A stretch of DNA of 64,000 nt from a bacterium 1XD42-54 (GTDB taxonomy: Bacteria; Bacillota; Clostridia; Lachnospirales; Lachnospiraceae), in NCBI GenBank assembly GCA_003612585.1, contig RAZH01000006.1, positions 1 through 64,000 of the forward strand, in the 5' to 3' direction. The stretch's first letter is position 1; the number at the start of each line of letters is the position of its first letter. Below, one piece after another: positions 1,206-32,018 of this stretch. The notes below the pieces were generated by a model. It was given only the letters and a program-made list of their open reading frames with translations, made no database searches and was not told the DNA's origin. The translations under genes were made by a program, and so were the position numbers.

Positions 1206-1652
1206 TTATTTTATCTGCCCCGCCAGGTCAGCAATATAAGCATATCCGCTTGTCAATTTCATTGCTGCATCTGTTTTTAAAATAACCCTCCAACAGTTCG
1301 GCATATCAGCTATTGTTGATATCGCCGTATCTACCCAACCACCCTCCAGCGTGAAAATTCGGGCTGATGTTATAGTCAGCGTATGTTTTTTGCTGTGTTT
1401 TGGGATTATTACAGTAAATCCCATTCCGTTGATGAAAAAACCCGGAAGCCAGCTTCCAGAGAAGGCACCTGTGACAAACATATTCGTGTTTTGTTCATTA
1501 ATAGCAGCAACCAAGTTACTTTTGTCTGTAGTTTTGAGACCTGACAATTCGCCCAGTTGGCTGCTTAGGGTCGTTACCTCTTTAAATACATGATTGATAT
1601 CTTCTTTGATTCGGTAAATAAAGCTTTTAACTGCATCTTTTTCTATTCTCAT
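1206..1652 (-). CDS. Putative tail appendage / receptor-binding protein, last gene of the tail cluster
   Basis: About 148 residues. The start MRIEKDAVKSFIYRIKEDI is chosen over an upstream in-frame ATG because an AACGAGG ribosome site precedes it. The same N-terminal pattern, MRI-x2-DA(V/I)K-x-FIY-x2-K, opens the next gene upstream (1772-2548). This suggests a shared short anchor that attaches different tips to one baseplate site. The rest is beta-rich with no domain I recognise. It is the most distal gene of the leftward tail operon, a usual place for variable adhesins. The role is inferred from position and the shared N-terminus. Confidence 0.55.
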   Translation of the reverse strand: MRIEKDAVKSFIYRIKEDINHVFKEVTTLSSQLGELSGLKTTDKSNLVAAINEQNTNMFVTGAFSGSWLPGFFINGMGFTVIIPKHSKKHTLTITSARIFTLEGGWVDTAISTIADMPNCWRVILKTDAAMKLTSGYAYIADLAGQIK

Positions 1653-1771
1653 AAATACCTCGTTATTTCTTGGGCCAGTATTGTATTGAGGGGTCAAAAA
1701 TAAGTTATTCTGTTGAAAATGAATGCTTCAGGCATAAATATATCTGAGTAAACAGAAAAAATACGCCAGGA

Positions 1772-2548
1772 TCAGGCCACCCGTTTCCACATATAACAGG
1801 TAATGTATGGCTGCAGATTATTATGTGCATTTCCGCTTCCGGTGTTTCCGGTATTAAATGCAGCTGAATTTGCAGTGCTTCCGGAAGCTGCTCCAGATGT
1901 TATTTGGGGGATTGTGATGGAGTGGTTGTGTGTAGCAGAACGTCCTGTTGTTGTACCTTTTACATTATGATGGTGGGTGACATCAACAGTGAAGGTATTA
2001 TGCCCCATCTGAGTTCCGCTGTCAGCGGCTCTATCGACTTTATTTGTTGCTTGGCTTATTATACCAGATGCAGTTCCAGTGTGCCATTGCATGGCTTTAA
2101 AAGTACCAGTTAAACTTTTATTTGTGACACCAGTATTTACATCAAAATTATGAGTATGCTCTTGCGTTTCAGCAGCGGACGTTACAGTTTTCCCATCTAT
2201 GATATGTGTATGGCTGTTTAAACCATGCGCATGTTGACCCACCTGATGGGCATGCGCAGGCAGCTGTGCAGTAGTCAGGGTATGAGTTTTTGTACCTCCG
2301 GTTTTTTCCGGAGTGTTAAAATCTGTATCGGATGTATTTATTCCGACAGGCACGCGACCGGAACCCCATATTTCCCATCTTGTGCCGACATATTTTGTGC
2401 CAGGGTTTATTCCGGATATATTGATTTCGATATCTCCGACAGATGGAATCAGGGAATCAAGCATTGCGAGCAGATCATTTCTGGTTTCGGAAATTTCTTT
2501 TTTATTTTTATAGATGAAACGTTTGATTGCGTCTTGTGTAATTCGCAT
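1772..2548 (-). CDS. Tail-collar / gp12-like fibre protein with His-rich metal-binding tip
   Basis: 258 residues. It begins with the MRITQDAIKRFIYKNKKEI anchor shared with the next gene downstream. The middle has WEIWGSGRVPVGINTSD, typical of phage tail-collar and microcystin-dependent (MdpB-like) proteins. A long stretch follows with repeated His-x-His motifs (AHAHQVGQHAHG, HSHT-like, THHHN, HNHS), which in T4 gp12-like trimers bind metal ions along the axis. It ends NNLQPYITCYMWKRVA, the conserved YI-x-CY-x-WKR terminus of this family. GAGGAG lies 9 bases before the ATG. It probably forms a receptor-binding fibre of the tail particle. Confidence 0.8.
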   Translation of the reverse strand: MRITQDAIKRFIYKNKKEISETRNDLLAMLDSLIPSVGDIEINISGINPGTKYVGTRWEIWGSGRVPVGINTSDTDFNTPEKTGGTKTHTLTTAQLPAHAHQVGQHAHGLNSHTHIIDGKTVTSAAETQEHTHNFDVNTGVTNKSLTGTFKAMQWHTGTASGIISQATNKVDRAADSGTQMGHNTFTVDVTHHHNVKGTTTGRSATHNHSITIPQITSGAASGSTANSAAFNTGNTGSGNAHNNLQPYITCYMWKRVA

Positions 2549-2567
2549 ATTATAGATCTCCTCTCCA

Positions 2568-3326
2568 CTATGCTTCAGTATGTTTTAGTTTGACCAGAAA
2601 CTGTGTCGGAATGGAAGAAGAGCTTTCGGGAATGATCAAAAGATAAACAATCTCTTCTCCATCAAGAATTGTTGTATACTGTGAACATTTGTAACTGCTG
2701 TTTCCCTTATCGTCGTATACAGAGATAATAGTATATGGTTTTGGATAAGCAAAGCCAAATGGTAATTCAAACCCGTACTGGTTCGGAGTCTGGAGCTTAT
2801 TTTCAGAAACAGAAACCACATAAGTATATGTCTGTTTATCAGATTCGCGGGGGATTGTGTAGTATATGAAAATGTCATGATACAATCCAATTTGGGTGGT
2901 TGTATTGTCTTCTATACTATCAAAATCTTCGCCATCAGTCGGCAACCATACGCGCAGCTTTCCGGAGTCGTTTAAAAGGGTTATTCCTTTTGTTTTAAAA
3001 GTGTTTTTAGAGTGGGAAGAACCACCAATTCCGTAGTCTATGCCCGAATCAGGATGTAAAAGGCTTCCATTATATACTACTGCGGAGACTTCAAGATCTG
3101 AAGTATAGGATATATCAGAAGTAGCGGAGAAGCCAAATGTTCCATTGTGGATACTCATGCTTGTCCCTTTCGGGATTTTAACATATTTAGTGTAAAAAAT
3201 TTCATTATACCACTGATTGATGTCGTCAGCAGTAATCACATCGCAGCGATTTGTTTCTACATAATATATCAAATTTTCCTTTAGTCTTTTTGTACCGTTT
3301 TTTCCTAAATAGTTGATTTTTTGCAT
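2568..3326 (-). CDS. Putative phage baseplate or fibre protein
   Basis: 252 residues, unrecognised by motif. The N-terminus (MQKINYLGKNGTKRLKENLIYYV, shortened here as MQKINYLGKNGTKRLKEN) is a short helical lead, followed by alternating polar beta-like segments without membrane helices or Cys clusters. A GAGGTG site precedes the ATG. It sits between the collar-type fibre and the BppU-like protein in one leftward operon, so a structural role in the tail tip is likely. It might carry a carbohydrate-binding fold. That role is positional inference. Confidence 0.5.
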   Translation of the reverse strand: MQKINYLGKNGTKRLKENLIYYVETNRCDVITADDINQWYNEIFYTKYVKIPKGTSMSIHNGTFGFSATSDISYTSDLEVSAVVYNGSLLHPDSGIDYGIGGSSHSKNTFKTKGITLLNDSGKLRVWLPTDGEDFDSIEDNTTTQIGLYHDIFIYYTIPRESDKQTYTYVVSVSENKLQTPNQYGFELPFGFAYPKPYTIISVYDDKGNSSYKCSQYTTILDGEEIVYLLIIPESSSSIPTQFLVKLKHTEA

Positions 3327-3387
3327 ATAAAAAACTTCACCTCATTTCAATGGATAAAAGGGACTGTTACAGTAAAAGCGAACGGGT

Positions 3388-4350
3388 TTAAGTTGTAAAC
3401 AGTCCGTCAATATACTCGTCTGTGATTTCTTCAAAATTCTCTGGTGTCAGAAACGTACCTGCTAAACAGTCCCAATATCCGTCCGCAGTATAGTAGACAT
3501 TTGTTCCCGCTGGATAAACGTATGAGGGGCCATCTTTAAAGGAATCATCAGTTGTGAAGGAATCGCTGATATTGTACATATATCCGCTTTTTTTCATTTC
3601 CTGTGCTAATTCAGATAATTCAGCAAACGTAATAGTGCCCATGGGCAATAAAGCGCCTTTCAGGCTTTGCGCTACACGTGAGGCCTGTTCAAAATAATAT
3701 TTTGCATTGTCTAAATTGTCGTCTTCTCTGACCGCGCCGTCTGTTCCGACTGCATAGCTTTTTGCCTGCAAAGAGTAACTCTGAGCGTCATTCTCACTGT
3801 TTTTGGCAGAGGCAGCGCTTGCAGCAGCTTTTGTTGCTTCATTTACCGCTGTTTCTTTGCTTGCAGCAGCATTTTGTTCAGATTCTTTTGCAGCCGCGGA
3901 AGCTCTTGCAGAATTTTCAGCGCTGATGGCCGCGTCATTTGCCTTCTGATCAGCAGAGCGCGCATATTCACGGCATTCCCCGAGCACAGTTTCCAGGCTG
4001 ATATAGTCTGGCGTATTGTCATAAATATAATTGGATGGTTTCGGGGCCTTTCTAACATTAATCCGGAATCCATAAATGCTTTTTATTTCCTCCTGATTGG
4101 TCAGGTTTACATAACCAGTGATGGTTTTGTATTGCGTGAGCAGTACATTTGGAATATTGGCAGTTAGAACCTGATCTGAAATAATTTCCGGGACAACAAC
4201 ATAAGCCTCCTCCATATCGTTTGTAAAAAAATGCACGCGTGCCGTTTCGTTTATTTCAATTCCAATAAATTGTACACCCACATTTTTATCCCACTGAACA
4301 AGCGTGGATAAAGAGTTTCCATTTAAATCATAAACCATAATTTCTTGCAC
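3388..4350 (-). CDS. BppU-like upper baseplate protein with coiled-coil stalk
   Basis: 320 residues from a GTG preceded by AAAGGAGG. Residues 1-110 form a beta domain (MVYDLNGNSLSTLVQW, then VGVQFIGIEIN) like the N-terminal domain of Gram-positive baseplate upper proteins (BppU family), which docks on the tail tip. Residues about 125-230 are an Ala/Ser/Lys/Glu-rich heptad region, a long trimeric coiled coil. A small C-terminal domain with aromatic residues follows (YVYPAGTNVYYTADGYWDCL). It probably links the tail-tip hub to the receptor-binding fibres encoded next downstream. Confidence 0.65.
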   Translation of the reverse strand: MQEIMVYDLNGNSLSTLVQWDKNVGVQFIGIEINETARVHFFTNDMEEAYVVVPEIISDQVLTANIPNVLLTQYKTITGYVNLTNQEEIKSIYGFRINVRKAPKPSNYIYDNTPDYISLETVLGECREYARSADQKANDAAISAENSARASAAAKESEQNAAASKETAVNEATKAAASAASAKNSENDAQSYSLQAKSYAVGTDGAVREDDNLDNAKYYFEQASRVAQSLKGALLPMGTITFAELSELAQEMKKSGYMYNISDSFTTDDSFKDGPSYVYPAGTNVYYTADGYWDCLAGTFLTPENFEEITDEYIDGLFTT

Positions 4351-4846: not shown

Positions 4847-6286
4847 TTACCTCTTCAGATATTTACTTGAAACAAAACCAGTGTAGGAACGGTAAGCGAC
4901 AAGATACCATTTTGTATGATTGACCTCTGTGTAATATCCATAGCAGCGGACGGTTCCTCCACAGGGGATCACGCACTGGATTTTTTGTCTGGTGTTATCC
5001 GTTCCGGCACCGGTTCTGAGGTTAAGCGCAGTTGTAGTGGTATAGGTACCGGCAAGTGATTTGGAAAAAGAGTATGCAGGGTCAATCTTTGTGCTTACTG
5101 TATTTGAGGGATTCTCAGTTTTAGTTGCGTTTGAGTCTGCTGTGTCTGGCTTTTGAGACGGGAGATTAGAAAGAAGAGAAGTGACCAGTGTATAATCCGG
5201 TCTGCAAAATTTAGTTCCCGGCAGCTTGCTGTTGAAATAGGATTTCTGACATACACCGCCGCCATTGGCAATCACACCTGAGGCGCCGCTTGTATTTCCT
5301 TCAATGGTCCAGAATTTATCTCCGGAAACCTTTGTGACAATGCCTGTATGCACGAAGGTGCCATTTCTGTAAAAGATTACGATATCACCGGCTTTCGGGT
5401 TCGCATGTTTTGTGAACAGGGTTCCAAGCGTGGGGCAGTAGACGTATGGCCAGTGCCCGAGCATTTTTTTTGCAGTATCTTTTCCAAAGGCTTTCATAAA
5501 TACCCACGAAACAAAACAAGCGCACCAGGCCTGTCCCTGATAAGCCGGATAGACGTCGCGCCAGTATTTGGTGTAATTGTTGCTTCCTGCATTTGCCGTT
5601 TTGCTGTCCAGATGATTATTGGTCGCTTTTTCCAGATACCCCAGCTCATTCGCAGCAATTTTAATTACTTTGTCAATCGCCTGAGCGATGGATGGCTGAG
5701 CCGAAGCTATGTTGTCTGTACTAGATGCTGGTTTGAAAAATTTATCATAATATTCCTGGCCGTATTTGGCCCGTATGCTTTGTACGGATGCTCCGGTATC
5801 CGGAGGACATTCAAATCTTTTTAAAACGATATCAGAAGCCTGCTTGACAGAGGTCGCTGTTTTTAATGCTGTCAGGACAGAAGTGTAGGATGTCGATAAT
5901 TCTTTCATCAGATAATCCAGGGTATTTTCTTCGTCAGCAATCGATACCCCTTTCGTTTTTGCGAGATCATAAAGCCCTGCTTTTCGCCCCGGGCTTGTCC
6001 ACTGCGCAAGCCCGTATCCATACTGTTTTCCCGGAAGGGGGTTCAGAAATTCAGAACGGGAAATCTTTCCATTATCAATTGCAGCAGTATAAGATGCGTC
6101 CGAGTAAACTTTGCCGTGTTCTTTCAGCCGTTTTAAACATAAAATTTCCACACGGTTGAAAATAAGTCCTGATTCTGCACGCAAATTCCCCATTAATCCG
6201 GCAACGCCGTAAGCATTTTTGAGTTTAGAGAAGAGATAATTCCACACCCGTTCTTCCACGTTTTTTTCTTTTTCAATCAGTGTCAT
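4847..6286 (-). CDS. Modular endolysin: lysozyme-like domain, CHAP amidase/peptidase, SH3 cell-wall binding
   Basis: 479 residues. The ATG at 6286 follows AAAGGAGTG; the GTG nine bases upstream would overlap that site. Residues about 10-185 match the phage tail lysozyme family, with RAESGL carrying the likely catalytic Glu38 and YGYGLAQWTSPGRK. Residues about 205-365 form a CHAP domain with catalytic Cys255 (QAWCACFVSW) and His313 (GTFVHTGIV). After a Ser/Thr/Asn-rich linker, a C-terminal bacterial SH3 domain follows (TALNLRTGAG to YTGFVSSKYL). It would cut both glycan and peptide bonds of peptidoglycan for host lysis and particle release. Confidence 0.92.
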   Translation of the reverse strand: MTLIEKEKNVEERVWNYLFSKLKNAYGVAGLMGNLRAESGLIFNRVEILCLKRLKEHGKVYSDASYTAAIDNGKISRSEFLNPLPGKQYGYGLAQWTSPGRKAGLYDLAKTKGVSIADEENTLDYLMKELSTSYTSVLTALKTATSVKQASDIVLKRFECPPDTGASVQSIRAKYGQEYYDKFFKPASSTDNIASAQPSIAQAIDKVIKIAANELGYLEKATNNHLDSKTANAGSNNYTKYWRDVYPAYQGQAWCACFVSWVFMKAFGKDTAKKMLGHWPYVYCPTLGTLFTKHANPKAGDIVIFYRNGTFVHTGIVTKVSGDKFWTIEGNTSGASGVIANGGGVCQKSYFNSKLPGTKFCRPDYTLVTSLLSNLPSQKPDTADSNATKTENPSNTVSTKIDPAYSFSKSLAGTYTTTTALNLRTGAGTDNTRQKIQCVIPCGGTVRCYGYYTEVNHTKWYLVAYRSYTGFVSSKYLKR

Positions 6287-6396
6287 AAAAATCACTCCTT
6301 TGTTTATAGAAGAAGGCCTGCCGCATAAACAATATTTTTATACATTTTTCTACAGAACAGTACGCTTACGCAGCAAACCTATAAAATATAAAGTCG

Positions 6397-6780
6397 TCAG
6401 TTCCATTGTTTGTCAATGATGCCCCTAAGAGTCTGTAAAGAACTGTCAATTTCATGATCCATCCACTGAATGAGTTCTTTTTGATTGAGCGCTCTGGAGA
6501 GAACGGGATATTTGTCAAACAGTTCATTTATGACCTGAGAACGTTTGATACTTCCAGTTTTGTTCCATTCCCCATAATCCATCTCAGCATCAGAAACCAA
6601 TGTAAGCAGCGTCTCTTTTATCTGGGCTTTTGCAATCTCAATTTTTTCCTCATCCGATTTCGTCCAGTAATCCTGTATCTTTTGAACGATACCAACAGAG
6701 AGCCCCAGAATGACCAGAATCGTCGTCCAATTAGCATTGATCAGCTGTAAAAAATTTTGAATTCCATTTAACATATTCAT
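6397..6780 (-). CDS. Putative phage holin, LLH-like
   Basis: 127 residues from an ATG placed five bases after GGAGG. Residues about 15-35 (WTTILVILGLSVGIVQKI) form one transmembrane helix. A long charged region with DYGEWNKTGSIKRSQVINEL follows, a pattern seen in LLH-type and related phage holins, where an acidic helix precedes a segment resembling host cell-wall proteins. It sits just upstream of the endolysin gene. Its job is probably membrane permeabilisation. The family call is by pattern only. Confidence 0.55.
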   Translation of the reverse strand: MNMLNGIQNFLQLINANWTTILVILGLSVGIVQKIQDYWTKSDEEKIEIAKAQIKETLLTLVSDAEMDYGEWNKTGSIKRSQVINELFDKYPVLSRALNQKELIQWMDHEIDSSLQTLRGIIDKQWN

Positions 6781-6814
6781 ACGTACCTCCATTTCCCGTA
6801 TTTATCAGGTTTCA

Positions 6815-7020
6815 CTTATTTATACAAAATCAGCTCCAGGGGGAGAATACACAGAAAATACTTTATTTTCTTTGGAGCGGTATTTTGTATATCTATAAGA
6901 TTCGGCCGTTTATAAAAATTAGCGCCAAGGGGAAGCGCACGAAGTGAGAAATGCGCAGTTTCCTTTCGAGCGCCATTTTTAAATTTAGTAGACGTATCCT
7001 CTGATACAAAGTCAGCCCGC
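6815..7020. repeat. Tandem diverged palindromic elements between lysis genes
   Basis: This non-coding gap holds two related hairpins. The first (about 6816-6899) pairs TATACAAAAT-x2-GCTCCA with TGGAGC-x3-ATTTTGTATA and has an inner AGAAAATA/TATTTTCT stem. The second (about 6912-6996) has AAAATTAGCGCCAAGGGG at one side and GAGCGCCATTTTT at the other, aligning with the first in both arms. A third partial start, ATACAAAGTCAGC, begins at about 7001 beside a GCCCGcttCGGGC hairpin. The shared arms suggest duplicated RNA-structure or promoter-type elements rather than chance. Confidence 0.6.
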
Positions 7021-7033
7021 TTCGGGCGCCCCT

Positions 7034-7420
7034 TTATTCGGAAAGTCGCCCCTTTTCGTCGGAAGTCCGCTTCCTCTCCGACATTGCCGCCTCATACACA
7101 ATACCACCAAGGGTATTTTCTGCCTTGGCCTTGTTGTAATAGCCCCAAATCGCAAGAGACAAAGTTACGGGTAGTACCAGCAGTGCGTACATGGCGCGCA
7201 TGTCACCTCTTTGAAGAATGATGTATTCGCAGAAAACAATTACTTCGAGACACAGTAAAATTACCGTCAACAGCATTAATTTGCTTGTTGACGGCAATTT
7301 GAAAGGTTTCCGGTATTTGTTTTTTTCGGCTTTCAGGTTCTGGCGAATTTCAATCTGTCGGTTCCTGATTTGAAGGTCGAGCATTTTTTCATTATACTTT
7401 TTTTCCGTCATATACCACAT
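7034..7420 (-). CDS. Small two-helix membrane protein in the phage cluster
   Basis: About 128 residues, starting MWYMTEKKYNEKM. The start is placed at an ATG nine bases after AGGGTG; an ATG three codons later is also possible. An N-terminal charged helix is followed by two transmembrane segments (LMLLTVILLCLEVIVFCEYI and YALLVLPVTLSLAIWGYY) and a polar tail. I do not recognise a family. Its place between the tail-tip genes and the holin/endolysin suggests an accessory lysis or membrane protein. Confidence 0.5.
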   Translation of the reverse strand: MWYMTEKKYNEKMLDLQIRNRQIEIRQNLKAEKNKYRKPFKLPSTSKLMLLTVILLCLEVIVFCEYIILQRGDMRAMYALLVLPVTLSLAIWGYYNKAKAENTLGGIVYEAAMSERKRTSDEKGRLSE

Positions 7421-7433
7421 ACCTAAGATCACC

Positions 7434-7664
7434 CTATTCTTTATCTGTCTTGCAGTTTTCTGTTCCGGCTAGTGCTTTTTCATACTGCGCTTTCTCCGAT
7501 GCATATTGCTGGGCCAGGGCCTGCTGTACCTGAGCATACAGACTGGCCAGTATTGGCTCAAGCACGATCGGCGGTAAATTAGAATGGTTGATTAGATTTG
7601 TCAGTCCGGTAACGAGTTCTTCGCGTGCTACGGTGAGGGGCTTGTTGATTGTTTTATTGTCCAT
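7434..7664 (-). CDS. Small hypothetical phage protein
   Basis: 76 residues, helical, with the segment EELVTGLTNLINHSNLPPIV and a Gln/Ala-rich helix (YAQVQQALAQQYASEKAQYE). Phages of Firmicutes often carry a small helical protein of this type just after the tail-tip gene, but I can assign no function. GGAGGAG-like sequence precedes the ATG. The stop is 13 bases before the ATG chosen for the next gene. Confidence 0.5.
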   Translation of the reverse strand: MDNKTINKPLTVAREELVTGLTNLINHSNLPPIVLEPILASLYAQVQQALAQQYASEKAQYEKALAGTENCKTDKE

Positions 7665-23746: not shown

Positions 23747-24538
23747 TTACGCTTCTTCCGGAACGACGATCTGGAAGAGCACCTTCTTGGAATCGCAGTA
23801 GTTCTGCTGGCAGATCAGCTTGAACGGATGCTTGCCGTCAGTTGTGAAGCTGATATCTACGTTTGCATCGAGTTTTGCGTTCGGGAAGATGAGGTATGCG
23901 TGAATCAGTGTGGTCGGATCACAGGTATCTGTACCCAGAACCTCCATGACAAATTTACCAGCTTTCGGGAAGTTGAGTGCGTCGCCTGTGACTGCAACTG
24001 CATTTTCCGCTGCATAATTGTACATAACGAGAAGCTGTGTACCTGCTGCCAGCTTGGTCGGAAGTGTGACAGAAGCGGACTCTGCATCGTATACAAACTG
24101 TGTCTCAGATGCTTCAGTACCTACTACGTATTTTGTGCCAAGTGTGCCGTCGCCGTTCAGCTGGTAGATTTCCGTGATGTTTTCAAGCGGAGTATGAGCC
24201 AGGGTCTTGGTTGTGTCGCCGGCAGCGATTTCCAGAGTTTCAAATGCCGGCGTACTGATCGTTGCGCTGGCGGAAGCCACTGCTTTGTCCACGCCGTTCT
24301 GTGCAGCGAACAGACTCAGGTCAAACAGAGAATTGCTGGCAGAGAATTCAGCCTTTTTGCCGCGGTTAAACGTAGCAATAGCGGAACCGAGTGCGTCGAC
24401 TGCCTCTGCTGTTTCGGATGTGATGTTGAGTGACGGCTCTGTAATCTGGTTGATAGACCAGAGGTAGGAACCATCTGCGGAAGTCATAACTCCACGAAGT
24501 ACATGATCGATTACGAAATTGTTGATATTAAATGCCAT
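23747..24538 (-). CDS. Major tail tube protein (putative)
   Basis: 263 residues after GGAGG. The first half (MAFNINNFVIDHVLRGVMTS, WSINQITEPSLNITSET, KKAEFSASNSLFDLSLFA) has the repeated beta pattern of siphophage tube subunits. Residues about 95-175 read like an inserted Ig-like domain (ENITEIYQLNGDGTLGTKYV). It precedes the chaperone-position and tape-measure genes, as expected. It would be the most abundant structural protein of the particle. Confidence 0.65.
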   Translation of the reverse strand: MAFNINNFVIDHVLRGVMTSADGSYLWSINQITEPSLNITSETAEAVDALGSAIATFNRGKKAEFSASNSLFDLSLFAAQNGVDKAVASASATISTPAFETLEIAAGDTTKTLAHTPLENITEIYQLNGDGTLGTKYVVGTEASETQFVYDAESASVTLPTKLAAGTQLLVMYNYAAENAVAVTGDALNFPKAGKFVMEVLGTDTCDPTTLIHAYLIFPNAKLDANVDISFTTDGKHPFKLICQQNYCDSKKVLFQIVVPEEA

Positions 24539-24583: not shown

Positions 24584-25333
24584 TCAGCTTTCATCGCCTT
24601 GGCTTCTCATCCAGTTAAATTCTTTTTTGTTTATTTTGCTTGTATCAATCATTCCACTGTAAGCTCCTTTGAGCAAAGCGGTAGAGGATACATAGATCTG
24701 TGAACCCATAACGGTATCCATAAATTCATAGTAACCGCATTGTTTCAGTTCGTCTTTTTTGTATTTGAAGCCGGGATATCGCATCATGGCAGATATGTAT
24801 TCTTTCAGATAAGACTTATAAGGTGCTTTTTTCTGCTTTTCAATGCGCTCCCGGTCAAGCCGGATTAAGATATCGTGCGTCGTCTTATTGGCGGCATGTT
24901 CGATTTTTGGTTTGATACCATGCATTTTTCGTAAATAAGAAACGATTCTCAGGTAAATAAGCCGGTCAATCGTAATGTCATTTTTTTCGTCGTACAAAAC
25001 GGGTTCATTGTTTCTTCGGTCAATCAGTGGAACAAAGGCGCTCAAATCTATTTTACCGAGAAATAGTCCCGTTTCGTTTGGGGTAAAGCTGCGGGAGATC
25101 AGGATGAAATATTCAAAGTCATCAATTTCCATGTAGTCGATGTTACAGATATCCAGCAGATAAGATTTCATATCGGATGGAATCGAACAGAGTGTGTAGA
25201 TTGCGTTAAAATATTTTCGTTCTCCAAACGCAACAATTTCCCCGATGGTAGGCTGATGAATCGTGATTTTATCGTTGATTTTGTAGTCTTCGGCAAAATA
25301 CAGTTTTAATTCATCAAAATCGGTCAGATCCAA
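24584..25333 (-). CDS. Phage tail-associated protein, function unassigned
   Basis: 249 residues starting at a TTG immediately after the upstream stop, with AAGGTGG nearby. Recognisable segments are INDKITIHQPTIGEIVAFGE, KYKKDELKQCGYYEFMDTV and STALLKGAYSGMIDTSKINK. The protein is acidic-helical without membrane segments. Similar proteins sit beside tail genes of Clostridia phages. A tail assembly chaperone or completion role is possible, but nothing in the sequence proves it. Confidence 0.5.
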   Translation of the reverse strand: MDLTDFDELKLYFAEDYKINDKITIHQPTIGEIVAFGERKYFNAIYTLCSIPSDMKSYLLDICNIDYMEIDDFEYFILISRSFTPNETGLFLGKIDLSAFVPLIDRRNNEPVLYDEKNDITIDRLIYLRIVSYLRKMHGIKPKIEHAANKTTHDILIRLDRERIEKQKKAPYKSYLKEYISAMMRYPGFKYKKDELKQCGYYEFMDTVMGSQIYVSSTALLKGAYSGMIDTSKINKKEFNWMRSQGDES

Positions 25334-25897
25334 TTAGTTCACCACCTTGTTATTTACAATGGTTGTCTGATTGTTCCTGGTTTTTAAAACAGCATTTGGC
25401 GTTTTTAGTTCAAAAACGAGCGTTCGAAGCGCATACTGGTTTTCTGTGACGCCAGCTGTTTCTTTGACGAGATGGACCTGCTGACCAAAACAGTTTGTCC
25501 AGTTGAAAACATCCCTGATCAGAGCTGCGAGCAGATCATGTCTGCTGATTTCAGTTTCTGTATCAAATATTGTTTTCTGGTCGCACAGAACATAAAAAAT
25601 GATTTTTCCATATTTGATAAGCCGGTTTTGCTCGCTTGTCTCAGAAAAACCGGTTTCAAAACAGATATAGTTTTTGGCATCCGTGGCTACGCCAGGAACC
25701 ACATAATATGGAAAAAGAGCTTTCCCCAGGTATTCATCCGGAGCGTTTTCATCCAGAGTTGGATGATTTAATACGTGAATAATGCGTTTGTCGGCACATA
25801 GTTTTTGCCTGATGATTTCCTTGAAACGTATGTTGTCATCATCCGGGTAATCTTTGAATTTCCGGAGCTCAAGGAGTTCTTCCTGTGACAATCCCAT
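25334..25897 (-). CDS. Putative tail terminator / completion protein, first gene of the tail operon
   Basis: 187 residues after a GGAGG site. The centre alternates beta strands (YYVVPGVATDAKNYICFETG, RLIKYGKIIFYVLCDQKT) and a helix (RHDLLAALIRDVFNWTNCFG), then a final strand pair. This suits the compact alpha-beta fold of tail terminators that cap the tube next to the head. It lies upstream of the tube protein, where terminators normally are. The family is inferred from position and pattern. Confidence 0.45.
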   Translation of the reverse strand: MGLSQEELLELRKFKDYPDDDNIRFKEIIRQKLCADKRIIHVLNHPTLDENAPDEYLGKALFPYYVVPGVATDAKNYICFETGFSETSEQNRLIKYGKIIFYVLCDQKTIFDTETEISRHDLLAALIRDVFNWTNCFGQQVHLVKETAGVTENQYALRTLVFELKTPNAVLKTRNNQTTIVNNKVVN

Positions 25898-25944
25898 AAA
25901 AATTCCTCCAAATTGATGGTTTTGGGTTTCTGAGTGGTCTGTAT

Positions 25945-25981
25945 GTGCACTGACGTTGCTGGATAAGCAGTGTCAGCGCAC
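25945..25981 (-). promoter_or_regulatory. Structured leader hairpin upstream of the tail operon
   Basis: On the minus strand GTGCGCTGACACTGCT pairs with AGCAACGTCAGTGCAC around TATCC. It lies in the 216-base gap between the polymerase gene and the first tail gene. There is no T-run, so it is not a simple terminator. It may be an RNA processing or stabilising structure, or lie close to a promoter for the phage-type polymerase. Confidence 0.55.
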
Positions 25982-26113
25982 AGTCAAAAAGAAATAATGA
26001 AAAAGAAATTGTGCTGTCTTTTCTTTCTCCCCTCCATAACAGTTCCTTAAGCGGTGCGCACAAATGGCTGTTTTACGGGGAAAAACAGGCCTCGAAGTGA
26101 GAAGTACGGAATT

Positions 26114-28921
26114 TTAACACGCTTTTTTGTAAACTTTTGCAAAATTCATGCCATACAGGATTACGTTCCCGGTGTCGCTGGCCGTCAGATAAGCCCTGTC
26201 AGACTTACTTTTCAGGAATGCATCATAAAAGGTTTTGTTTGGAATTCCCATGAGAGCGAAGAAGGTGGAAGAGCGGATATCGGCATATTCTTCACTTTCG
26301 ATGCGTTTCATTAGAGCGTACGCAGTGCTGTAGGTGAATTTCATTTTGGAAAGCTCCTCCAGAACGGCGCGTTTGATCTCGCTGCTGAGGAAATATTTTG
26401 TCTGGCGGTCCATTTCCTCTTCCGATTTTGCATAGATCTGACGGATGGAATCCTTCTGATCACGAATCAGATCCGTGATGCGGCGTATCTGGTGGTAGTT
26501 CACGAGCGAGCTGTCGTACTGTGATTTATCAAGAATATCGCTGAAAGGAATGTATTCTTTTTTCTGTACAGTCCGGATGCGGTAGGAATTTATGATTTTC
26601 TGCAGATAGTCCATGGAGGTCTGATGTTTCCGATAGTTTTTTGCAGATGGAATATAGTAGCCTTTTTTTCTGGCCAGGTGCAAAAAGAAGTTCGGCTTTA
26701 TCTCTTTTCCGTTTTCATCCTGGAACATACATTTGTACTTCTGCTTCATCTTTCGCAGTTCCACCGCATTGTCGGTTGTAAAGATCTTTTTTGCTTTGTC
26801 AATCTCGAGATTTGACATAACGTCGAGCTGTGCAATGTCGCAGTATAATTCCATATTTTCTTCAATCGACTGACCGTGAGCGAGATTGTCCCAAAGCAGG
26901 CTGTTCAGCATCTGAGAAAAATTAATAATTTCTCCGATTTTGTTTACCGATGTTTTCACATCAAGGTCTGCTTTCTGTTCGTCTGTAAAGTATCGGTTGG
27001 CTTTGTCGGCAGATACAAGGCCTGTCGGCACTTTAAAATGGTCATAATTTTTCCTGGCGGCCTGTATGAGGATATTATGATCGGTAAGCATTACTGCGTC
27101 TGAGTCAAAATCTGATCCGCTCAAACGGTTCAGTACATTTTCACCAATCGAATTCATACAGCAGATTTCCTTTGATAAATTAAAATAGGTATCTATCAGC
27201 GAATTTTGCTGATTTGTGGGGAGCCACATATTTCCGATTGTGACATGAGGACTTCTAGAGCCGAGCAGCGTCTTTCCATATGCGAAGTTTTTACAATGGA
27301 TATTTCCGATGCCGATCTGACTCTCCCCGGTGAAACGCCCGATAGCATGCTGAAGCATTTCAACAGGATTGCCAAGCAGGGTAGCGTAGTTACCGCGGAC
27401 AAGGATGTGTCCGTACCGGATATTTTTCAGATATGCGCTGATCAGTTTTTTCTTAAAATCTTCATAGATTCTGGTGTGTTCAAACTGATCATTCAGATCG
27501 AGCATCCGAAATACAATATCGTTTTTATTTTGGACAGGGGAATAGCTGTTTTCAAACTCAGAATCGAGGTTGAATTTGAGATGGTGCCGCATGACTGCCA
27601 CATCTGTACGAAGCAGTCTTGCGTATTCAAGTGATTCTGCCAGAAGCTCTTCCATTTCCCGTTCGGATAGCTGCAAGGTATTGATCAGCTGATAATGTGT
27701 CTGTACAAATTTTCCGTTAAAATAGTGTGTTGGCTTCTCGTGTTTTACTACACCGAAGGTCGGTTCAAGGTGATCAAGCCATTGATCGAGTGTCCCGAAT
27801 TTCAGATATTTAATGCTGCTTGGAGTGGTAATCAGTTTGACGTCCTCAATACGGGTTGCCCTCGTGTATCCGTTTAGTTGAGAAAGTTTTGTTATGTTGT
27901 GGTCGGCAAACCATTGCTGAATATTAGTGTTAAAACAGCAGGATTTGAAAAAACGGTTTCTCAGAAGAACCATACCGTAGCAGTCATACATGCCCATAAG
28001 TGTTTGATCAATCAGAGACTGACCGTCCCAGATGTTATTTGAGATTGTAACATGTTCTTCTTTTGTAACCAGATTTCCATCCACAGCTCTCGTAGCGACG
28101 ACATCGTCTTCAAATACACTTTTATAATCATGGATGACTAAAATATTTTCCGGAAGAATCTGAAGCGTATCAATGATACTGCTCGAAGTAAGAGAAATAT
28201 AGGATTCCCATGCGGCCAGGTCAATTTTTTGCCCTTTGCGGATTTTTAGCCCGCAGCATTCCCACCGGTGCATGCGCGCATAAAGTTTTTCATCAATAAA
28301 CAGGCATTTCCCGACTCTGGCTGACCCCGAAGAACGTTTAAACCGTACATAATGGATTCCATCACAGGTAAAACCATTTTGGTACAACAGATTCCTGGCC
28401 TGTGCGCAGGTATAAACTGTTTTGATGCCGCTTTTTAGCTCATATATGCCAGTGGGTTCCCCATTACGCCTGGTGTAACAAAAACTTTTTCCAAGCAAAC
28501 TGTCATCAACGGGAGAAAGTACTTCCTGCCCGATGCGAATGCCTGCCAGTTCGCCGTTCCTGACACAGACATTGTCTTCAAATGTAAGATCGCTGACGTT
28601 GTATCCATACTTTACGTAGGTGTCAGCGTTTACACGGTTATATTCATATACGTTATATTTGAAAGTTACATTGATGATACATCTGGTAAACTCTTTCCCC
28701 AGATGCGTGAAAGTCATTTTAGAATTGCGATATGCTTTTTGATAGACTTCCTGCAGCTTGATAGATTCCAAGCTGTGGTCTAAGACATTGGTAAATTTTC
28801 TGTAGTTGACAGTTCCATCCTTTCTCATAAGAGAATATCCGTTACCTCTGTCACTGGCAGCCGCAAGGATCAGGTCCTTTGCGTCCAGCGAAGCGATATA
28901 AAGTCCTCTACTTATAGACAA
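26114..28921 (-). CDS. Single-subunit two-barrel RNA polymerase, YonO / QDE-1-like
   Basis: 935 residues; AAAAGGAG precedes the ATG. The catalytic loop is SGSDFDSDAVML, with Asp603, Asp605 and Asp607 as the metal-binding triad (DxDxD), very like SGGDLDGD of cellular RdRPs and the DFDGD loop of beta-prime. Upstream, GSRSPHVTIGNMW (about 553-565) matches the Arg-x-Pro segment before the triad. The second barrel is represented by IWDGQSLID and MVLLRNRFFKS (about 296-326), where a conserved Lys is expected. YonO of phage SPbeta, of similar length, is a DNA-dependent RNA polymerase for late genes. Here the gene directly precedes the tail and lysis operon in the same direction, so it probably transcribes it. 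Confidence 0.85.
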   Translation of the reverse strand: MSISRGLYIASLDAKDLILAAASDRGNGYSLMRKDGTVNYRKFTNVLDHSLESIKLQEVYQKAYRNSKMTFTHLGKEFTRCIINVTFKYNVYEYNRVNADTYVKYGYNVSDLTFEDNVCVRNGELAGIRIGQEVLSPVDDSLLGKSFCYTRRNGEPTGIYELKSGIKTVYTCAQARNLLYQNGFTCDGIHYVRFKRSSGSARVGKCLFIDEKLYARMHRWECCGLKIRKGQKIDLAAWESYISLTSSSIIDTLQILPENILVIHDYKSVFEDDVVATRAVDGNLVTKEEHVTISNNIWDGQSLIDQTLMGMYDCYGMVLLRNRFFKSCCFNTNIQQWFADHNITKLSQLNGYTRATRIEDVKLITTPSSIKYLKFGTLDQWLDHLEPTFGVVKHEKPTHYFNGKFVQTHYQLINTLQLSEREMEELLAESLEYARLLRTDVAVMRHHLKFNLDSEFENSYSPVQNKNDIVFRMLDLNDQFEHTRIYEDFKKKLISAYLKNIRYGHILVRGNYATLLGNPVEMLQHAIGRFTGESQIGIGNIHCKNFAYGKTLLGSRSPHVTIGNMWLPTNQQNSLIDTYFNLSKEICCMNSIGENVLNRLSGSDFDSDAVMLTDHNILIQAARKNYDHFKVPTGLVSADKANRYFTDEQKADLDVKTSVNKIGEIINFSQMLNSLLWDNLAHGQSIEENMELYCDIAQLDVMSNLEIDKAKKIFTTDNAVELRKMKQKYKCMFQDENGKEIKPNFFLHLARKKGYYIPSAKNYRKHQTSMDYLQKIINSYRIRTVQKKEYIPFSDILDKSQYDSSLVNYHQIRRITDLIRDQKDSIRQIYAKSEEEMDRQTKYFLSSEIKRAVLEELSKMKFTYSTAYALMKRIESEEYADIRSSTFFALMGIPNKTFYDAFLKSKSDRAYLTASDTGNVILYGMNFAKVYKKAC

Positions 28922-29125: not shown

Positions 29126-29163
29126 CGCAAAAGAGGCGAGCCTCATTTTCAGAGACTCACCTC
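29126..29163 (-). terminator. Leader terminator / attenuator before the RNA polymerase gene
   Basis: On the minus strand GAGGUGAGUCUC and GAGGCUCGCCUC pair fully if two G-U pairs are allowed, followed by TTTTGCG. It lies about 60 bases into the transcript from the promoter at 29227-29255 and some 200 bases before the polymerase ATG. A second hairpin (AATAATG/CATTATT, 29181-29164) abuts its upstream side. Together they look like conditional termination. Confidence 0.65.
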
Positions 29164-29193: not shown

Positions 29194-29219
29194 GAACATA
29201 TGTACGGAATGTGTTCCGT
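29194..29219. promoter_or_regulatory. Operator-like palindromes at the RNA polymerase promoter
   Basis: ACGGAATGTGTTCCGT (29204-29219) is an inverted repeat at the predicted transcription start of the polymerase promoter. Overlapping it, GAACATATGTAC (29194-29205) is one mismatch from the GAAC-N4-GTTC LexA/DinR box of Firmicutes. The stretch CATATG-tac-GGAATG also resembles the CATATGGAATG repeats at the regulator's own promoter. Binding by LexA or by the phage regulator is inferred. Confidence 0.5.
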
Positions 29220-29226: not shown

Positions 29227-29255
29227 ATTGTATCATGAAAGGATAGAGGTGTCAA
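29227..29255 (-). promoter_or_regulatory. Sigma-A promoter for the RNA polymerase gene
   Basis: On the minus strand TTGACA (29255-29250), a 17-base spacer and TACAAT (29232-29227) form a near-consensus promoter. It directs transcription left, through the palindrome and leader terminator, into the polymerase gene. Host RNA polymerase would therefore make the phage-type polymerase first. Confidence 0.75.
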
Positions 29256-29315: not shown

Positions 29316-29344
29316 TTGACATTTGGTTTAATGTATGATATTTT
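29316..29344 (+). promoter_or_regulatory. Rightward sigma-A promoter of the divergent control region
   Basis: TTGACA (29316-29321), a 17-base spacer and TATTTT (29339-29344). It points toward the 29612 gene. A direct repeat begins at the predicted start site, suggesting repression by occlusion. The two divergent promoters are about 60 bases apart, as in phage switch regions. Confidence 0.7.
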
Positions 29345-29348
29345 GAAT

Positions 29349-29449
29349 AAGAGTTCCGAAAGAACGAATATAAGCTGCCGAAGAATGGTTTTGGGATTTT
29401 TTCTTAAGCAGTTTTTCTTTCAAAAAAGAGTTCCGAAAGAACGAACATA
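29349..29449 (+). repeat. Pair of 24-base direct repeats downstream of the rightward promoter
   Basis: Copies at 29349-29372 and 29426-29449 share AAGAGTTCCGAAAGAACGAA and then differ at one base before ATA. Each contains GTTC-cgaaa-GAAC dyad symmetry. The first overlaps the predicted transcription start, and the second is 77 bases further on. This is the layout of an operator pair. The rest of 29450-29611 is leader without a gene; it includes a GGTAC-ttttt-GTACC hairpin. Confidence 0.75.
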
Positions 29450-29611: not shown

Positions 29612-29965
29612 ATGGATGGAAAATGTATTGTCAATCAGGTCAAAGGATACGGGTCTATGCGTTTTGGTATGGAGATGCCGAAAAATGCAGTGTATGGAAC
29701 ATACCGGGGCGTACCGTGGATGTGCATTGATTTGAATTTTTATCCGGACGGCAAGTCAATTGATGTGCTTGTTTACAGACGAAAGTCAGAAAGATGGAGG
29801 CGGGAGCGTCTCGACAGCGGACCGATTTACGAGATTTTGACACAGTATATAGCAGAGAACGGTTTGCTCGGGAGGCCTGTAAAGTACGCATTAAGACTGA
29901 GGGGTACGTTTCAGGCAAATGGTCCGGCTGGCAGAAAAAGAAAAGTTTATTCCTCGTTTTGTTGA
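29612..29965 (+). CDS. Hypothetical protein in the control operon
   Basis: 117 residues after GGGGGTGG. The sequence (YGSMRFGMEMPKNAVYGTYR, VPWMCIDLNFYPDGKSIDVL) looks like a small beta-rich domain ending in a basic tail (AGRKRKVYSSFC). It has no membrane segment and no motif I recognise. It is the first gene after the repeat-flanked rightward promoter and lies just before the recombinase-fold regulator, so a regulatory or host-interaction role is possible. Confidence 0.5.
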   Translation: MDGKCIVNQVKGYGSMRFGMEMPKNAVYGTYRGVPWMCIDLNFYPDGKSIDVLVYRRKSERWRRERLDSGPIYEILTQYIAENGLLGRPVKYALRLRGTFQANGPAGRKRKVYSSFC

Positions 29966-30002: not shown

Positions 30003-30065
30003 CATATGGAATGTTTTCTTTACAGGGATATAAACTCATGATAAAATTGTTATACATATGGAATG
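30003..30065 (+). promoter_or_regulatory. Promoter bracketed by 11-bp direct repeats before the recombinase-fold regulator
   Basis: TTTACA (30019-30024), a 17-base spacer and TAAAAT (30042-30047) give a good promoter. CATATGGAATG occurs at 30003-30013, just upstream of the -35 element, and again at 30055-30065, at the predicted start site. Two identical sites bracketing a promoter suggest autoregulation of the following gene. A related sequence occurs at the polymerase promoter. Confidence 0.65.
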
Positions 30066-30086
30066 AGGGGTCGGACAGTTATTATT

Positions 30087-30992
30087 ATGTATAACAAGGA
30101 CAGAAAAAAGCAGTTTCTGGAAACGCTGAAGGATAAGGCGGAGACAGGCAGAGCAAACCGAGTTTTTGCTGCTTCAGAAGAACCGGAAATTTTGACAGGA
30201 AAGGATCTGTGCGAGTTTGACAGAGAAGAGTTGTTGGATTTGATCGAACAGATGGAAATCGTACAGCTGACGACAGCACAGGGATGTTATACTGTAATTC
30301 GGAAATATATGAAGTGGTGTATGGATGCTTTTCTGATACCAGCCACAGATTTAGTACAGATTTCTGTAAACGAAATGCAGAAGAGATTAACAGCGCTCCC
30401 GGAAATTATCACGTATGAGGAGCTGCAGAAAAATGAAAGGCGGTTAATCAATATATGCGACCGGCTGATACTGGAGGCTATTTATCTCGGCATAAAAGGA
30501 AAAGATTATTGCGAACTGTTTTCTATGTCGGAAAAGGATATTGATCGAAAGCGAAAAACGATCAGGTTATGTACTGGCAGAGAGATCAAGGTTACGAGTA
30601 ATTTTATTGATTTATGTGAGAGTTCTGCTGAGTGCTACGAGTATGAACTGGTCAGCGGGCAAAAACAAAAGTTAGTCGGAAATTTACCGATTAAGAGAAA
30701 CGCACAGGCGGACAAGGCATCCGGAAAAACAAGAAACGCCGATATCATAGCAAGCCGACTGAAGCGATTTAAAAAATTGCCGGGCTATAAAGATAATCTG
30801 AGCACAACGATGCTGTTTGACAGTGGCTTTGTAAACGCATGCAAATCTGCCATGAAAGAAAACGAAGTAGATGATTTTGAGTATTTTATGAAAACGGAAA
30901 AGGGCAAAGAAATTTATAGTCAATACGGGCTGCCTCAAACACAGACGGCCAAGTGGAATAAAATGCGAAAATACAAAGGATATTTTGAATAG
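30087..30992 (+). CDS. Tyrosine-recombinase-fold protein without catalytic residues, MrpR/YopR-like regulator candidate
   Basis: 301 residues from MYNKDRKKQFLETLKDK. An in-frame ATG at 30063 lies at the predicted transcript start and lacks a ribosome site, so the start is uncertain. Residues about 50-100 resemble the core-binding domain of phage integrases (LTTAQGCYTVIRKYMKWCMD). The next domain has the box-I region as AIYLGIKGKDYCELFSMSEK, where the catalytic Arg of GLR-xx-EL is absent. No HxxR and no nucleophilic Tyr context is visible. SPbeta MrpR (YopR) is a repressor with this decayed fold. Bracketing repeats at its promoter support a DNA-binding regulator. Confidence 0.6.
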   Translation: MYNKDRKKQFLETLKDKAETGRANRVFAASEEPEILTGKDLCEFDREELLDLIEQMEIVQLTTAQGCYTVIRKYMKWCMDAFLIPATDLVQISVNEMQKRLTALPEIITYEELQKNERRLINICDRLILEAIYLGIKGKDYCELFSMSEKDIDRKRKTIRLCTGREIKVTSNFIDLCESSAECYEYELVSGQKQKLVGNLPIKRNAQADKASGKTRNADIIASRLKRFKKLPGYKDNLSTTMLFDSGFVNACKSAMKENEVDDFEYFMKTEKGKEIYSQYGLPQTQTAKWNKMRKYKGYFE

Positions 30993-31095: not shown

Positions 31096-31151
31096 TTGAC
31101 AAACGTATGTTCTGGTGCGATAATAATAGCACAGAAAGAACAAACGTTCGA
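31096..31151 (+). promoter_or_regulatory. SOS-type promoter with two LexA/DinR-like boxes
   Basis: TTGACA (31096-31101), a 17-base spacer and GATAAT (31119-31124). GAACAAACGTTC (31140-31151) is a perfect GAAC-N4-GTTC box at about +9. In the spacer, AAACGTATGTTC (31101-31112) is the reverse complement of GAACATACGTTT, one mismatch from the box. This arrangement predicts LexA repression and DNA-damage induction of the following small genes. Confidence 0.75.
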
Positions 31152-31168: not shown

Positions 31169-31477
31169 ATGGATGAAATGCAGAGAGAACGGCTTTTGGC
31201 AGGATTGCATGTATGGGAAAGGCTGCAGAATGTCAATTTAAGAATTATGAGTGGAACAAAAGTCTTGCAGGGCAGATATAAACGATTCTCAGGGAAAAGA
31301 CAAATCCGAATCTATTTAGACCATAGACAGAGCTACACCTTTCACACGGATGCGATAGAGCGGATCGAGTTTTGCAAGGTGCGGGGACTTAGATATACAT
31401 TGTATATGGAAGATAGATTCGGTGTCAAAACCTATATCGAGCATATTTCAGAAGATGAAATTCAAAAAAATAAATAA
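31169..31477 (+). CDS. Small protein under LexA-type control, candidate antirepressor
   Basis: 102 residues, charged, starting MDEMQRERLLAGLHVWERLQ after a GAGGG site. The centre has beta-like segments (RQIRIYLDHRQSYTFHTDAI, GLRYTLYMEDRFGVKTYIEH). I recognise no family. It is the first gene behind the promoter with two LexA boxes. In SPbeta-like phages a small SOS-linked protein counters the repressor; that role here is an inference from position only. Confidence 0.55.
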   Translation: MDEMQRERLLAGLHVWERLQNVNLRIMSGTKVLQGRYKRFSGKRQIRIYLDHRQSYTFHTDAIERIEFCKVRGLRYTLYMEDRFGVKTYIEHISEDEIQKNK

Positions 31478-31496
31478 AAGAATACTCAAAAGAGGG

Positions 31497-31533
31497 AATG
31501 TCCATTACGAGCTGCAGCGTGATGGACATTTTT
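31497..31533 (+). terminator. Rho-independent terminator after the SOS-type gene
   Basis: AATGTCCAT and ATGGACATT pair around a 16-base loop and TTTTT follows. It separates the 102-residue gene from the EF-hand gene, which must rely on read-through or its own promoter. Confidence 0.75.
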
Positions 31534-31582
31534 GCGTCAAAATGAAAATTTTATGATTGTTTGCAGAAGAACGGAGGAAAAG

Positions 31583-31879
31583 ATGACAAAGGAAGGATTT
31601 TATACGAATAAGTATGTGACTACAAAACAGAAAATTACAGAAAGAGACAGATATGAGGCGCTGAAATTGTATTTTGATATATGCGATTCGGACGAGGATG
31701 GATTGGTAAGCAAAGAGGAGGCAGTACGACTTTTCAGACAGATTGATGCATTTCGCATTCCGAAATTCAGAAATGAGCTTTTCGGGAGGCTTGAGAGATA
31801 TCTGGGGCTGTTTTATGATGATGACATAAAAGATTGGAATGCATGCCGGCTTGAGAAGGAGGAAAAAAATTATGCGTAA
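31583..31879 (+). CDS. Small EF-hand protein
   Basis: 98 residues from an ATG after GGAGGAAAAG; an upstream in-frame ATG lacks such a site. A canonical EF-hand loop is present in YFDICDSDEDGLVSKEEAVR: Asp, Ser-Asp, Glu-Asp, Gly, and Glu at position 12, with flanking helices. A second, degenerate helix pair may follow (LFYDDDIKDWNACRL). EF-hands are uncommon in bacterial phage-like elements. Calcium binding is expected from the loop, but the biological role is unknown. The gene overlaps the next one by eight bases. Confidence 0.65.
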   Translation: MTKEGFYTNKYVTTKQKITERDRYEALKLYFDICDSDEDGLVSKEEAVRLFRQIDAFRIPKFRNELFGRLERYLGLFYDDDIKDWNACRLEKEEKNYA

Positions 31880-32018
31880 AAATTGTTGGAACGGGCAAGA
31901 CAGAAACGAACAGAAACGCAGGGCTTTTAACCGTATTATGGTGAAAACGAAACAGAAAAAACCAATCTGCACGAAGAATGGCGTCGTGTGGGGAACAGAC
32001 AGAGATGCGTTAAAATAG
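31872..32018 (+). CDS. Small basic protein, translationally coupled to the EF-hand gene
   Basis: 48 residues, MRKNCWNGQDRNEQKRRAFN to GTDRDALK, rich in Lys and Arg. The start overlaps the EF-hand stop as ATGCGTAA, and AGGAGGAAAAAAATT precedes it. No family recognised. It is the last gene before the chromosomal ispF gene, so the accessory region probably ends near 32020-32130. Confidence 0.5.
   Translation: MRKNCWNGQDRNEQKRRAFNRIMVKTKQKKPICTKNGVVWGTDRDALK

Follow-up and report, generated by a model that had tools for sequence, protein, structure and literature searches.

We find that a bacterium of the family Lachnospiraceae carries a phage tail and lysis operon that is led by its own RNA polymerase and in which no head genes were recognized. 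The island lies in the window, by which we mean the whole 64,000-nucleotide stretch analyzed here (bases 1-64000 of contig C31, GenBank RAZH01000006.1, of bacterium 1XD42-54; genome 3.70 Mb in 34 contigs, 99.98% complete). Its core is a co-directional minus-strand block that spans 28921 down to ~1206, with a YonO-like single-chain RNA polymerase (RNAP) first and fiber-type genes last, in the order RNAP, terminator, phrog_4051, phrog_2729, tape measure, DUF6558, tip and lysis genes. Judged from this gene content, the island is quite probably the late operon of an SPbeta-like phage that has become domesticated, with the RNAP driving the proposed damage-triggered production of an F-type tailocin-like particle.

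The island resembles F-type tailocins in its gene set and differs from them in its polymerase. Like F-pyocin, monocin and rhizoviticin, it has a siphophage-type tail and no head, replication or packaging genes. Unlike these systems, its operon is led by a dedicated YonO-like RNAP; to our knowledge, known F-type tailocins are transcribed by the host polymerase. Headless tails with lysis genes are themselves known, and what appears to be new is the dedicated RNAP at the head of an F-type tailocin-like set. No paper on an RNAP-driven tailocin was among the top PMC literature matches listed, a coverage outside which most subscription journals and preprints fall.

The RNAP belongs to the family of the SPbeta polymerase YonO. 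It is encoded on the minus strand at 26114-28921, matches phrog_8308 (E = 4.8e-92) and is 49.6% identical over its whole length to the RNAP of phage record MT835469.1 (Bacteriophage sp., 176 kb, human gut). Its aspartate motif DFDSD (residues 604-608) is invariant in a 6-row alignment, and the catalytic triad, as DFDSD or DYDSD, is present in 15 of 16 further RNAPs, the exception being the first piece of a broken gene (L067). A sequence-only reading of this DNA had proposed a viral-type, two-barrel polymerase upstream of tail genes, and the family match and motif bear this out. Relatives are numerous (3176 among 7997 scored candidates), and a few of the 120 listed carry the RdRP domain PF05183; the RNAP profile matched no PDB sequence at the limits used. 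The island RNAP shares only 22.8% identity over 57% with that of Bacillus phage BUCT082.

The layout follows that of the SPbeta late operon, in which the YonO gene lies upstream of a long structural and lysis operon and an MrpR-type repressor is present (PMC5467207, PMC8270828). SPbeta makes infectious virions, whereas no head genes were found in the island. YonO is produced after mitomycin C, and 37 of the 148 induced SPbeta genes, including structural and lysis genes, are silent without it; the late operon begins upstream of yonK, near yonO (PMC5467207). By analogy, the late promoter of the island RNAP would be expected in the 216 bp that separate the RNAP from the tail genes (25898-26113, minus strand), where no motif was recognized.

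The genes downstream of the RNAP encode a complete non-contractile tail. We scanned the 23 minus-strand proteins of 1206-28921 against PHROGs, and 20 of these also against Pfam. The family matches, the homology to MT835469 and the predicted fold of the terminator together uphold the claim of the sequence-only reading that the tail extends from terminator to fibers. The gene nearest the RNAP (25334-25897) encodes a protein with the predicted fold of a tail terminator, or cap, whose best VIA-align match is a chain of a gene transfer agent. It is followed by a tail-cluster gene of family phrog_4051 (24584-25333; E = 8e-11), which holds an equivalent place in phage and headless loci, and by the candidate major tail (tube) protein (23747-24538; phrog_2729, E = 1.9e-21), whose place is equivalent in MT835469 and other islands. 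The label of phrog_2729 is "head and packaging; virion structural protein"; the gene has tail genes around it in both kinds of locus, phage and headless. The C-terminal part of the phrog_2729 protein of L075 weakly matches "major tail protein" (E = 0.0035), and the window protein matched no PDB sequence at the limits used. Two small genes before the tape measure (22288-23196; 127 and 169 amino acids) may encode tail chaperones, given their position and weak or no PHROG matches. In all, the minus-strand ORFs taken as genes between RNAP and tape measure comprise 187, 249, 263, 86, 169, 127 and 128 codons, and two open reading frames of 169 and 114 codons lie there on the opposite strand (open reading frames are abbreviated ORFs).

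The tape measure protein has 2500 amino acids (13133-20635; phrog_4211, E = 5.5e-27) and is 36% identical to that of MT835469 over 726 columns. In islands G061, G063, G065 and G072, sequence of this family is split over several ORFs with other ORFs between them. The distal-tail-type protein (11956-12816; DUF6558, phage tail protein) matches PF20195 (E = 1.3e-49) and PF20753 (E = 6.6e-39). The tail tip or minor tail protein (7693-11952; 1419 amino acids; phrog_6211, E = 1.4e-21) has a C-terminal S74 domain (PF13884) and is 37% identical to its MT835469 counterpart over 1000 columns. Three further minus-strand genes are of the fiber type: a Gp10_C-domain protein of fiber or receptor-binding type (1772-2548; PF21939, E = 6.1e-23; phrog_24267, phrog_5717), a tail-fiber-like protein (3388-4350; phrog_16164, E = 5e-14, and weak fiber families) and a tail-fiber-like fragment or small fiber protein (1206-1697; phrog_4757, E = 1.4e-7; tail-fiber families at ~1e-5).

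As in F-type tailocins, lysis genes are linked to the tail module. The endolysin (4847-6295, minus strand) combines a phage tail lysozyme domain (lysozyme2; PF18013, E = 3.9e-25) with CHAP (PF05257, E = 4.7e-12) and SH3_3 (PF08239), which confirms the earlier assignment, and is 65% identical to its MT835469 counterpart over 178 columns. The holin-type proteins also claimed by that reading correspond to three small minus-strand genes (6397-7664; 131, 132 and 76 amino acids) in PHROGs of unknown function. Their position fits, and those of 131 and 132 amino acids are 56% and 37% identical to MT835469 proteins in the same order; the holin-type assignment rests on this position and homology.

No head or packaging genes were recognized in the island, and no terminase or portal by profile in the genome. 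Terminase, portal, capsid and sheath families had no PHROG or Pfam match among the scanned proteins, as the sequence-only reading had stated, and it is this absence of a sheath match on which the non-contractile assignment depends. A terminase profile of 21 rows and a portal profile of 20 rows, both of which match phage-type controls, found nothing in the 3.70-Mb genome. Over all genomes tested, the terminase profile matched seven of 21 in one set and two of 13 in another, and the portal profile matched four of 15.

Intact relatives show where the head genes would lie. MT835469 has homologs of the tape measure, DUF6558 protein, tip, two of the small genes and the endolysin, arranged as in the window. 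Between its RNAP and tape measure are a terminase-matching gene and a portal (phrog_2739, E = 7e-46), both placed ahead of the terminator-like gene, then phrog_4051 and phrog_2729; farther on lies a long stretch of mostly plus-strand genes. In prophage G258, which was drawn from the host's family, a single contig carries the RNAP, a terminase and a portal, then a gene of the terminator family, relatives of the phrog_4051 and phrog_2729 genes of MT835469, and the tape measure. The distance from the RNAP stop to the main tape-measure start is 5.5 kb in the window and 6.4-12.4 kb in five other headless islands, compared with 25.4 kb in one of these intact relatives and 39.4 kb, including terminase and portal, in MT835469.

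The main alternative, raised by the sequence-only reading itself, is that the island is part of a larger SPbeta-like prophage and that the contig end hides its head and replication genes, which would be located past the IS66 piece or on another contig. The contig indeed ends within IS66 at position 1, intact phages with the same modules exist, and MrpR is an SPbeta repressor family. However, the place that terminase and portal genes (~500-600 codons each in relatives) occupy in intact phages is fully read here and is filled by the 216-bp gap. The terminase and portal genes of such a prophage were likewise not found by profile searches, and 12 other genomes with a like arrangement have no terminase match. 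An SPbeta-like prophage thus explains the ancestry of the island but not the repeated headless state, and we regard this alternative as unlikely.

The headless arrangement recurs in related bacteria. We call a locus headless when the RNAP has tail-cluster genes (of the terminator, phrog_4051 or phrog_2729 families) close behind it and there is no terminase or portal match. We collected 92 RNAP loci, 27 from a scan of genome contigs and 65 from a scan of viral contigs, in which a single-sequence RNAP query matched nothing and an alignment query did find loci; 56 of the 92 have a terminase-family ORF within the fetched DNA. The sequence-only reading had suggested looking for the block in other genomes, and 12 have it: L049, L050 (Murimonas intestini; record flagged "UNVERIFIED_CONTAM"), L053 (Cuneatibacter sp. 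NSJ-177), L057 (Ca. Pseudolachnospira avium), L061, L063, L064, L067, L075, G092, G418 and G458. In L061, G418 and G458 a contig or fetch boundary truncates the island behind the first tail genes. The terminase profile matched none of these 13 genomes, the host of the window included, and the portal profile none of the 10 tested. L065 was kept outside the headless counts, its genome having pieces of both terminase and portal on a different contig. The genomes of L051, L062, L068 and L073, loci unlabelled or labelled "phage?", also lack a terminase match; matches were weak in G210 (2e-5) and reached 1e-19 in the genome of L060. Four of the 12 were read on long contigs into both flanks: islands G061, G063, G069 and G070 extend ~28-35 kb from RNAP to last co-directional gene, and have a downstream flank mostly on the other strand.

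The headless label changes about nine times on the RNAP tree. It needs nine changes among 65 rows, and the starred branches force eight, L065 included; the tree is a quick one, made by short searches and not bootstrapped, and part of the labels are incomplete. The window RNAP groups with that of L049 (92%) and with five further proteins, which are 68-75% identical. Among 397 genomes drawn from the host's family, nine carry an RNAP of this subfamily (E < 1e-280). Of these nine only G258 has a terminase match, with G329 and G389 counted through G061 and G063, which have identical contig coordinates, and headless islands may therefore outnumber intact prophages in the family; the downstream contigs of G135, G351 and G458 are shorter than 5 kb, where a divergent terminase could be missed.

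The repeated pattern suggests a broader class of elements. Related bacteria have a like arrangement, in many cases next to probable DNA-damage switches, so that intact viruses may have been turned into a weapon repeatedly. We lean toward the view that headless tails with their own two-barrel RNAP and damage control form a widespread weapon class, derived repeatedly from SPbeta-like phages of gut Clostridia; each would have originated by removal of the stretch between polymerase and tail terminator.

Substitution patterns in one species pair argue for maintenance of its island. The two genomes, G069 and G070, have common genes on both island flanks. Between them, the ratio of nonsynonymous to synonymous substitution rates (dN/dS) is 0.068-0.161 for 10 of 11 island genes (RNAP 0.098, tape measure 0.113, tip 0.075), with F18 at 0.31. 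Island dS is 0.46-1.07 for the same proportion of genes (F18 1.61), similar to the 0.63-1.35 of nine of 10 flanking genes, the tenth being poorly aligned and saturated. Because island dS is like flank dS and dN/dS is low, this is the pattern that vertical descent under purifying selection would give. Between the window and L049, dN/dS is 0.063 for the RNAP, 0.178 for the 187-amino-acid gene and 0.026 for the 263-amino-acid gene; the 86-amino-acid gene gives 0.48, on few changes.

These values bear on a second alternative, that the island is a decaying, functionless prophage remnant. IS66 has entered its left edge, and the L049 counterpart of the 249-amino-acid phrog_4051 gene reads as two ORFs, which placed it outside the dN/dS comparison. 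The RNAP of G072 (contig C1, 204886-208056) is split by a TAA stop, and that copy thus seems to be decaying. Nevertheless, the large genes of the window are open, including those of 2500 and 1419 codons, dN/dS is low for the RNAP against L049 and for 10 of 11 island genes between G069 and G070, at dS like that of the flanks, and several lineages of the RNAP tree lack a like module. We consider decay an improbable account of the island. The least credible alternative, that the tails serve the head of another phage or element in the cell, for example in moving DNA, would suit a terminator that can also receive a head and has a gene transfer agent chain as its best match, a fold that does not discriminate this reading from a tailocin; yet no head genes of this phage type were found in the genome (other kinds of head gene lay outside the search), and lysis genes are included.

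A candidate switch lies divergently upstream of the RNAP. A putative sigma-A-type promoter (TTGACA-17-TACAAT, 11 of 12 positions, with TG before the second hexamer) points into the RNAP at 29227-29255 on the minus strand. Just downstream of it is a perfect palindrome, ACGGAA-N4-TTCCGT (29204-29219), a candidate operator and the sole mismatch-free match in the window, and the RNAP leader also holds a terminator-like hairpin (29133-29163). On the plus strand, two direct repeats that contain AGTTCCGAAAGAACGAA (29352 and 29429, a distance of 77 bp) lie in the leader of the divergent switch (29341-29449), followed by a 117-amino-acid gene (29612-29965) with no PHROG or Pfam match. Next is an MrpR/YopR-like repressor of the tyrosine-recombinase type (30063-30992), for which tblastn finds SPbeta-group phages. 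Like MrpR (YopR) of SPbeta (PMC10516654), it matches PF22822 (E = 2.5e-18) and the YopR/MrpR entries of PDB (7e-14); the core-binding domain scores 66.9 bits against a cut-off of 27, which places the protein in the family, and its C-terminal domain differs in matching weakly (0.0029). A second promoter-like site, TTGACA-17-GATAAT (31096-31124), lies with the SOS-type boxes AAACGTATGTTC (31101) and GAACAAACGTTC (31138) within 31096-31149, ahead of a 102-amino-acid gene (31169-31477) with no match in Pfam, PHROGs or phages, a candidate anti-repressor. The SOS-type control region of the sequence-only reading is thus real as sequence, promoter and boxes both, but one exact box is not rare by itself (two in the window, 0.75 expected).

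Clostridial-type SOS boxes are enriched before the RNAP in headless loci, though not significantly once loci are paired on the tree. Searches for LexA sites in C. difficile have employed motifs that include GAAC-N4-GTTC and GAAC-N4-GTTT (PMC4234289). We scored exact GAAC-N4-GTTC within 1.2 kb before the RNAP at loci with at least 600 bp upstream, and L049, with short upstream DNA, was left unscored. The box is present in eight of 14 headless loci, none of 42 phage loci and none of nine labelled "phage?" (Fisher 2e-6), and in one of seven unlabelled loci. The 14-locus figure alone counts G135 and G351, which have no visible tail genes because their contigs end; under strict labels the proportions are 6/12 and 0/42 (Fisher 4e-5). 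The headless set holds 10 boxes where 0.20 are expected. Tandem boxes with a spacing of 32-34 bp are present in L063, L064, L067, G092 and G135; under the strict labels, four of 12 headless loci have them and none of the 42 phage loci. In L065 the spacing is 28 bp. No exact box was found within the same distance in G418, G458, L057, L061 or L075; L057 has one 53 bp after the RNAP.

These elements suggest how the operon might work. An SPbeta-like late operon would have been domesticated with its RNAP, tail and lysis genes kept and its head and packaging genes gone. In the resting state the RNAP promoter (29255-29227) would be held off, probably by the MrpR-like protein near the palindrome at 29204-29219. 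DNA damage would free the SOS-type promoter at 31096-31124, presumably from LexA, and the 102-amino-acid product would disarm the repressor, so that the RNAP promoter opens; in many relatives, an SOS box lies directly before the RNAP. The RNAP would then transcribe the tail and lysis genes, starting at a promoter within 25898-26113, and tails of ~350 nm would assemble, closed by the terminator in place of a head. This length is obtained by scaling the 2500-residue tape measure at 0.139 nm per residue, the ratio of the SPbeta tail length, 320 nm (PMC8270828), to the 2295-residue tape measure of the SPbeta relative Goe14. The tails would leave by endolysin lysis and would bind and depolarize related cells. 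Membrane depolarization is the model of killing by tailocins. We infer promoter use, the roles of repressor and anti-repressor, LexA control, particle formation and killing from the gene set and its relatives.

Several observations weigh against this account. Promoter-like sites (18 in the region, 13.0 expected) and terminator-like sites (three, 6.2 expected) are near chance numbers. When the SOS association is paired on the tree, using eight independent pairs, it is not significant, with three to four pairs for and none against (sign test, p 0.125-0.5). The exact box is present in one of 10 host lexA loci, there behind the gene start, and near-boxes in three of 10 (410 bp searched), with none in the lexA locus of the window genome itself. 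The window has no exact box within 1.2 kb before its RNAP; the nearest is 2.2 kb upstream, at the 102-amino-acid gene. The tube assignment rests on family and position, the structure model being unusable (predicted local distance difference test score 46). With the contig ending at position 1, head genes beyond IS66 are excluded by profiles only and not by reading. Finally, an RNAP match occurs in only one of 35 same-genus genomes, at 30%, so the island is patchy, and the G072 copy is interrupted.

The island may give a role to part of the chromosomal YonO-like proteins. Such proteins occur in the main genomes of many firmicutes, with special gene sets as speculated targets (Forrest et al. 2017, PMC5467207). 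Headless tail and lysis operons name a concrete gene set for some of them and, if our account is true, would give these polymerases a job, a role left open in 2017. Independent origins of tailocins from phages (PMC12090994) and SOS-linked control of R-type tailocins (PMC10538166) have been described. The class is a candidate narrow-range antibacterial, the polymerase and its promoter would form a small paired expression system, and the repeated origins allow the individual steps that turn a virus into a weapon to be compared.

The sequences to either side of the island were identified by Pfam, in agreement with the earlier placement of an IS66 remnant at left and chromosomal ispF at right. The IS66 transposase piece (4-330, plus strand; PF03050, E = 3.7e-23) lies outside the island at the contig end, so the left edge of the island is unreadable. 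On the right, ispF (32022-32675, plus strand; PF02542, E = 3.3e-71 from residue 37) has a first ATG probably later than 32022, and a CysS gene was also confirmed. Two more IS66 derivatives occur in the genome, at the very start of C17 and of C1. The 5.7-kb contig C17 has ORFs that resemble, by eye, an ABC transporter and a two-component system, and no tail or head genes were recognized by eye, without profile scans, in the first 5.7 kb of C17 or 6 kb of C1.

A like block stands beside ispF in a second genome, a recurrence that the sequence-only reading had thought worth seeking. G092, from another genus of the family, has a headless island whose RNAP is distant and which lies on the corresponding side of shared neighbors: ispF (62% identical), an acetyltransferase (50% over 123 amino acids), CysS (77%) and two further genes (54% and 80%). 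Island and neighbors are separated by a divergent gene and by one that is reductase-like (PF01077). In nine same-genus relatives of the host, a tenth fetch being too short, no upstream neighbor of ispF is common to all, and thus no empty site can be read.

Other gene families accompany these switches and tails. A divergent F8-family gene is found upstream of the RNAP in L063, L064, L067, L075, G092, G135, G351 and G458, where the window has the MrpR-like gene, and the family also occurs in MT835469. It was at first suspected to be a recombinase; in Pfam, the L063 member is GmrSD_N (PF03235) and the G092 member has no match. A second headless island, G418, has an MrpR-type gene upstream of its RNAP (L183 9661-10587; PF22822, E = 7.6e-13). 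The two opposite-strand ORFs of the window (20700-21209 and 21236-21580, plus strand; 169 and 114 amino acids, families F6/F36) look zinc-ribbon-like by eye and are possibly exclusion or immunity genes. Similar ORFs lie just upstream of the tape measure in G061, G063, G065, G069, G070, G079, G092, G418 and prophage G258, and MT835469 and Goe14 likewise have opposite-strand genes at this place. Tailocin immunity was considered for them; their presence in G258 means that they are not specific to headless islands.

No structured RNA reached the gathering score in the window, and weak matches to DUF805b, TeloSII, snoRNA-like and Xist RNAs were regarded as chance. The "skipping-rope" RNA of SPbeta, annotated close to yonO in Goe14, was not found at 25600-26600. 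Tetrahydrofolate riboswitches occur in the upstream flanks of islands L063 (5609-5719) and L064 (5154-5267). Island G070 has a tyrosine-type integrase (L153 5719-6825; phrog_1, E = 3e-50) between an F18-family gene and the endolysin, a place where its sister G069 has no such ORF.

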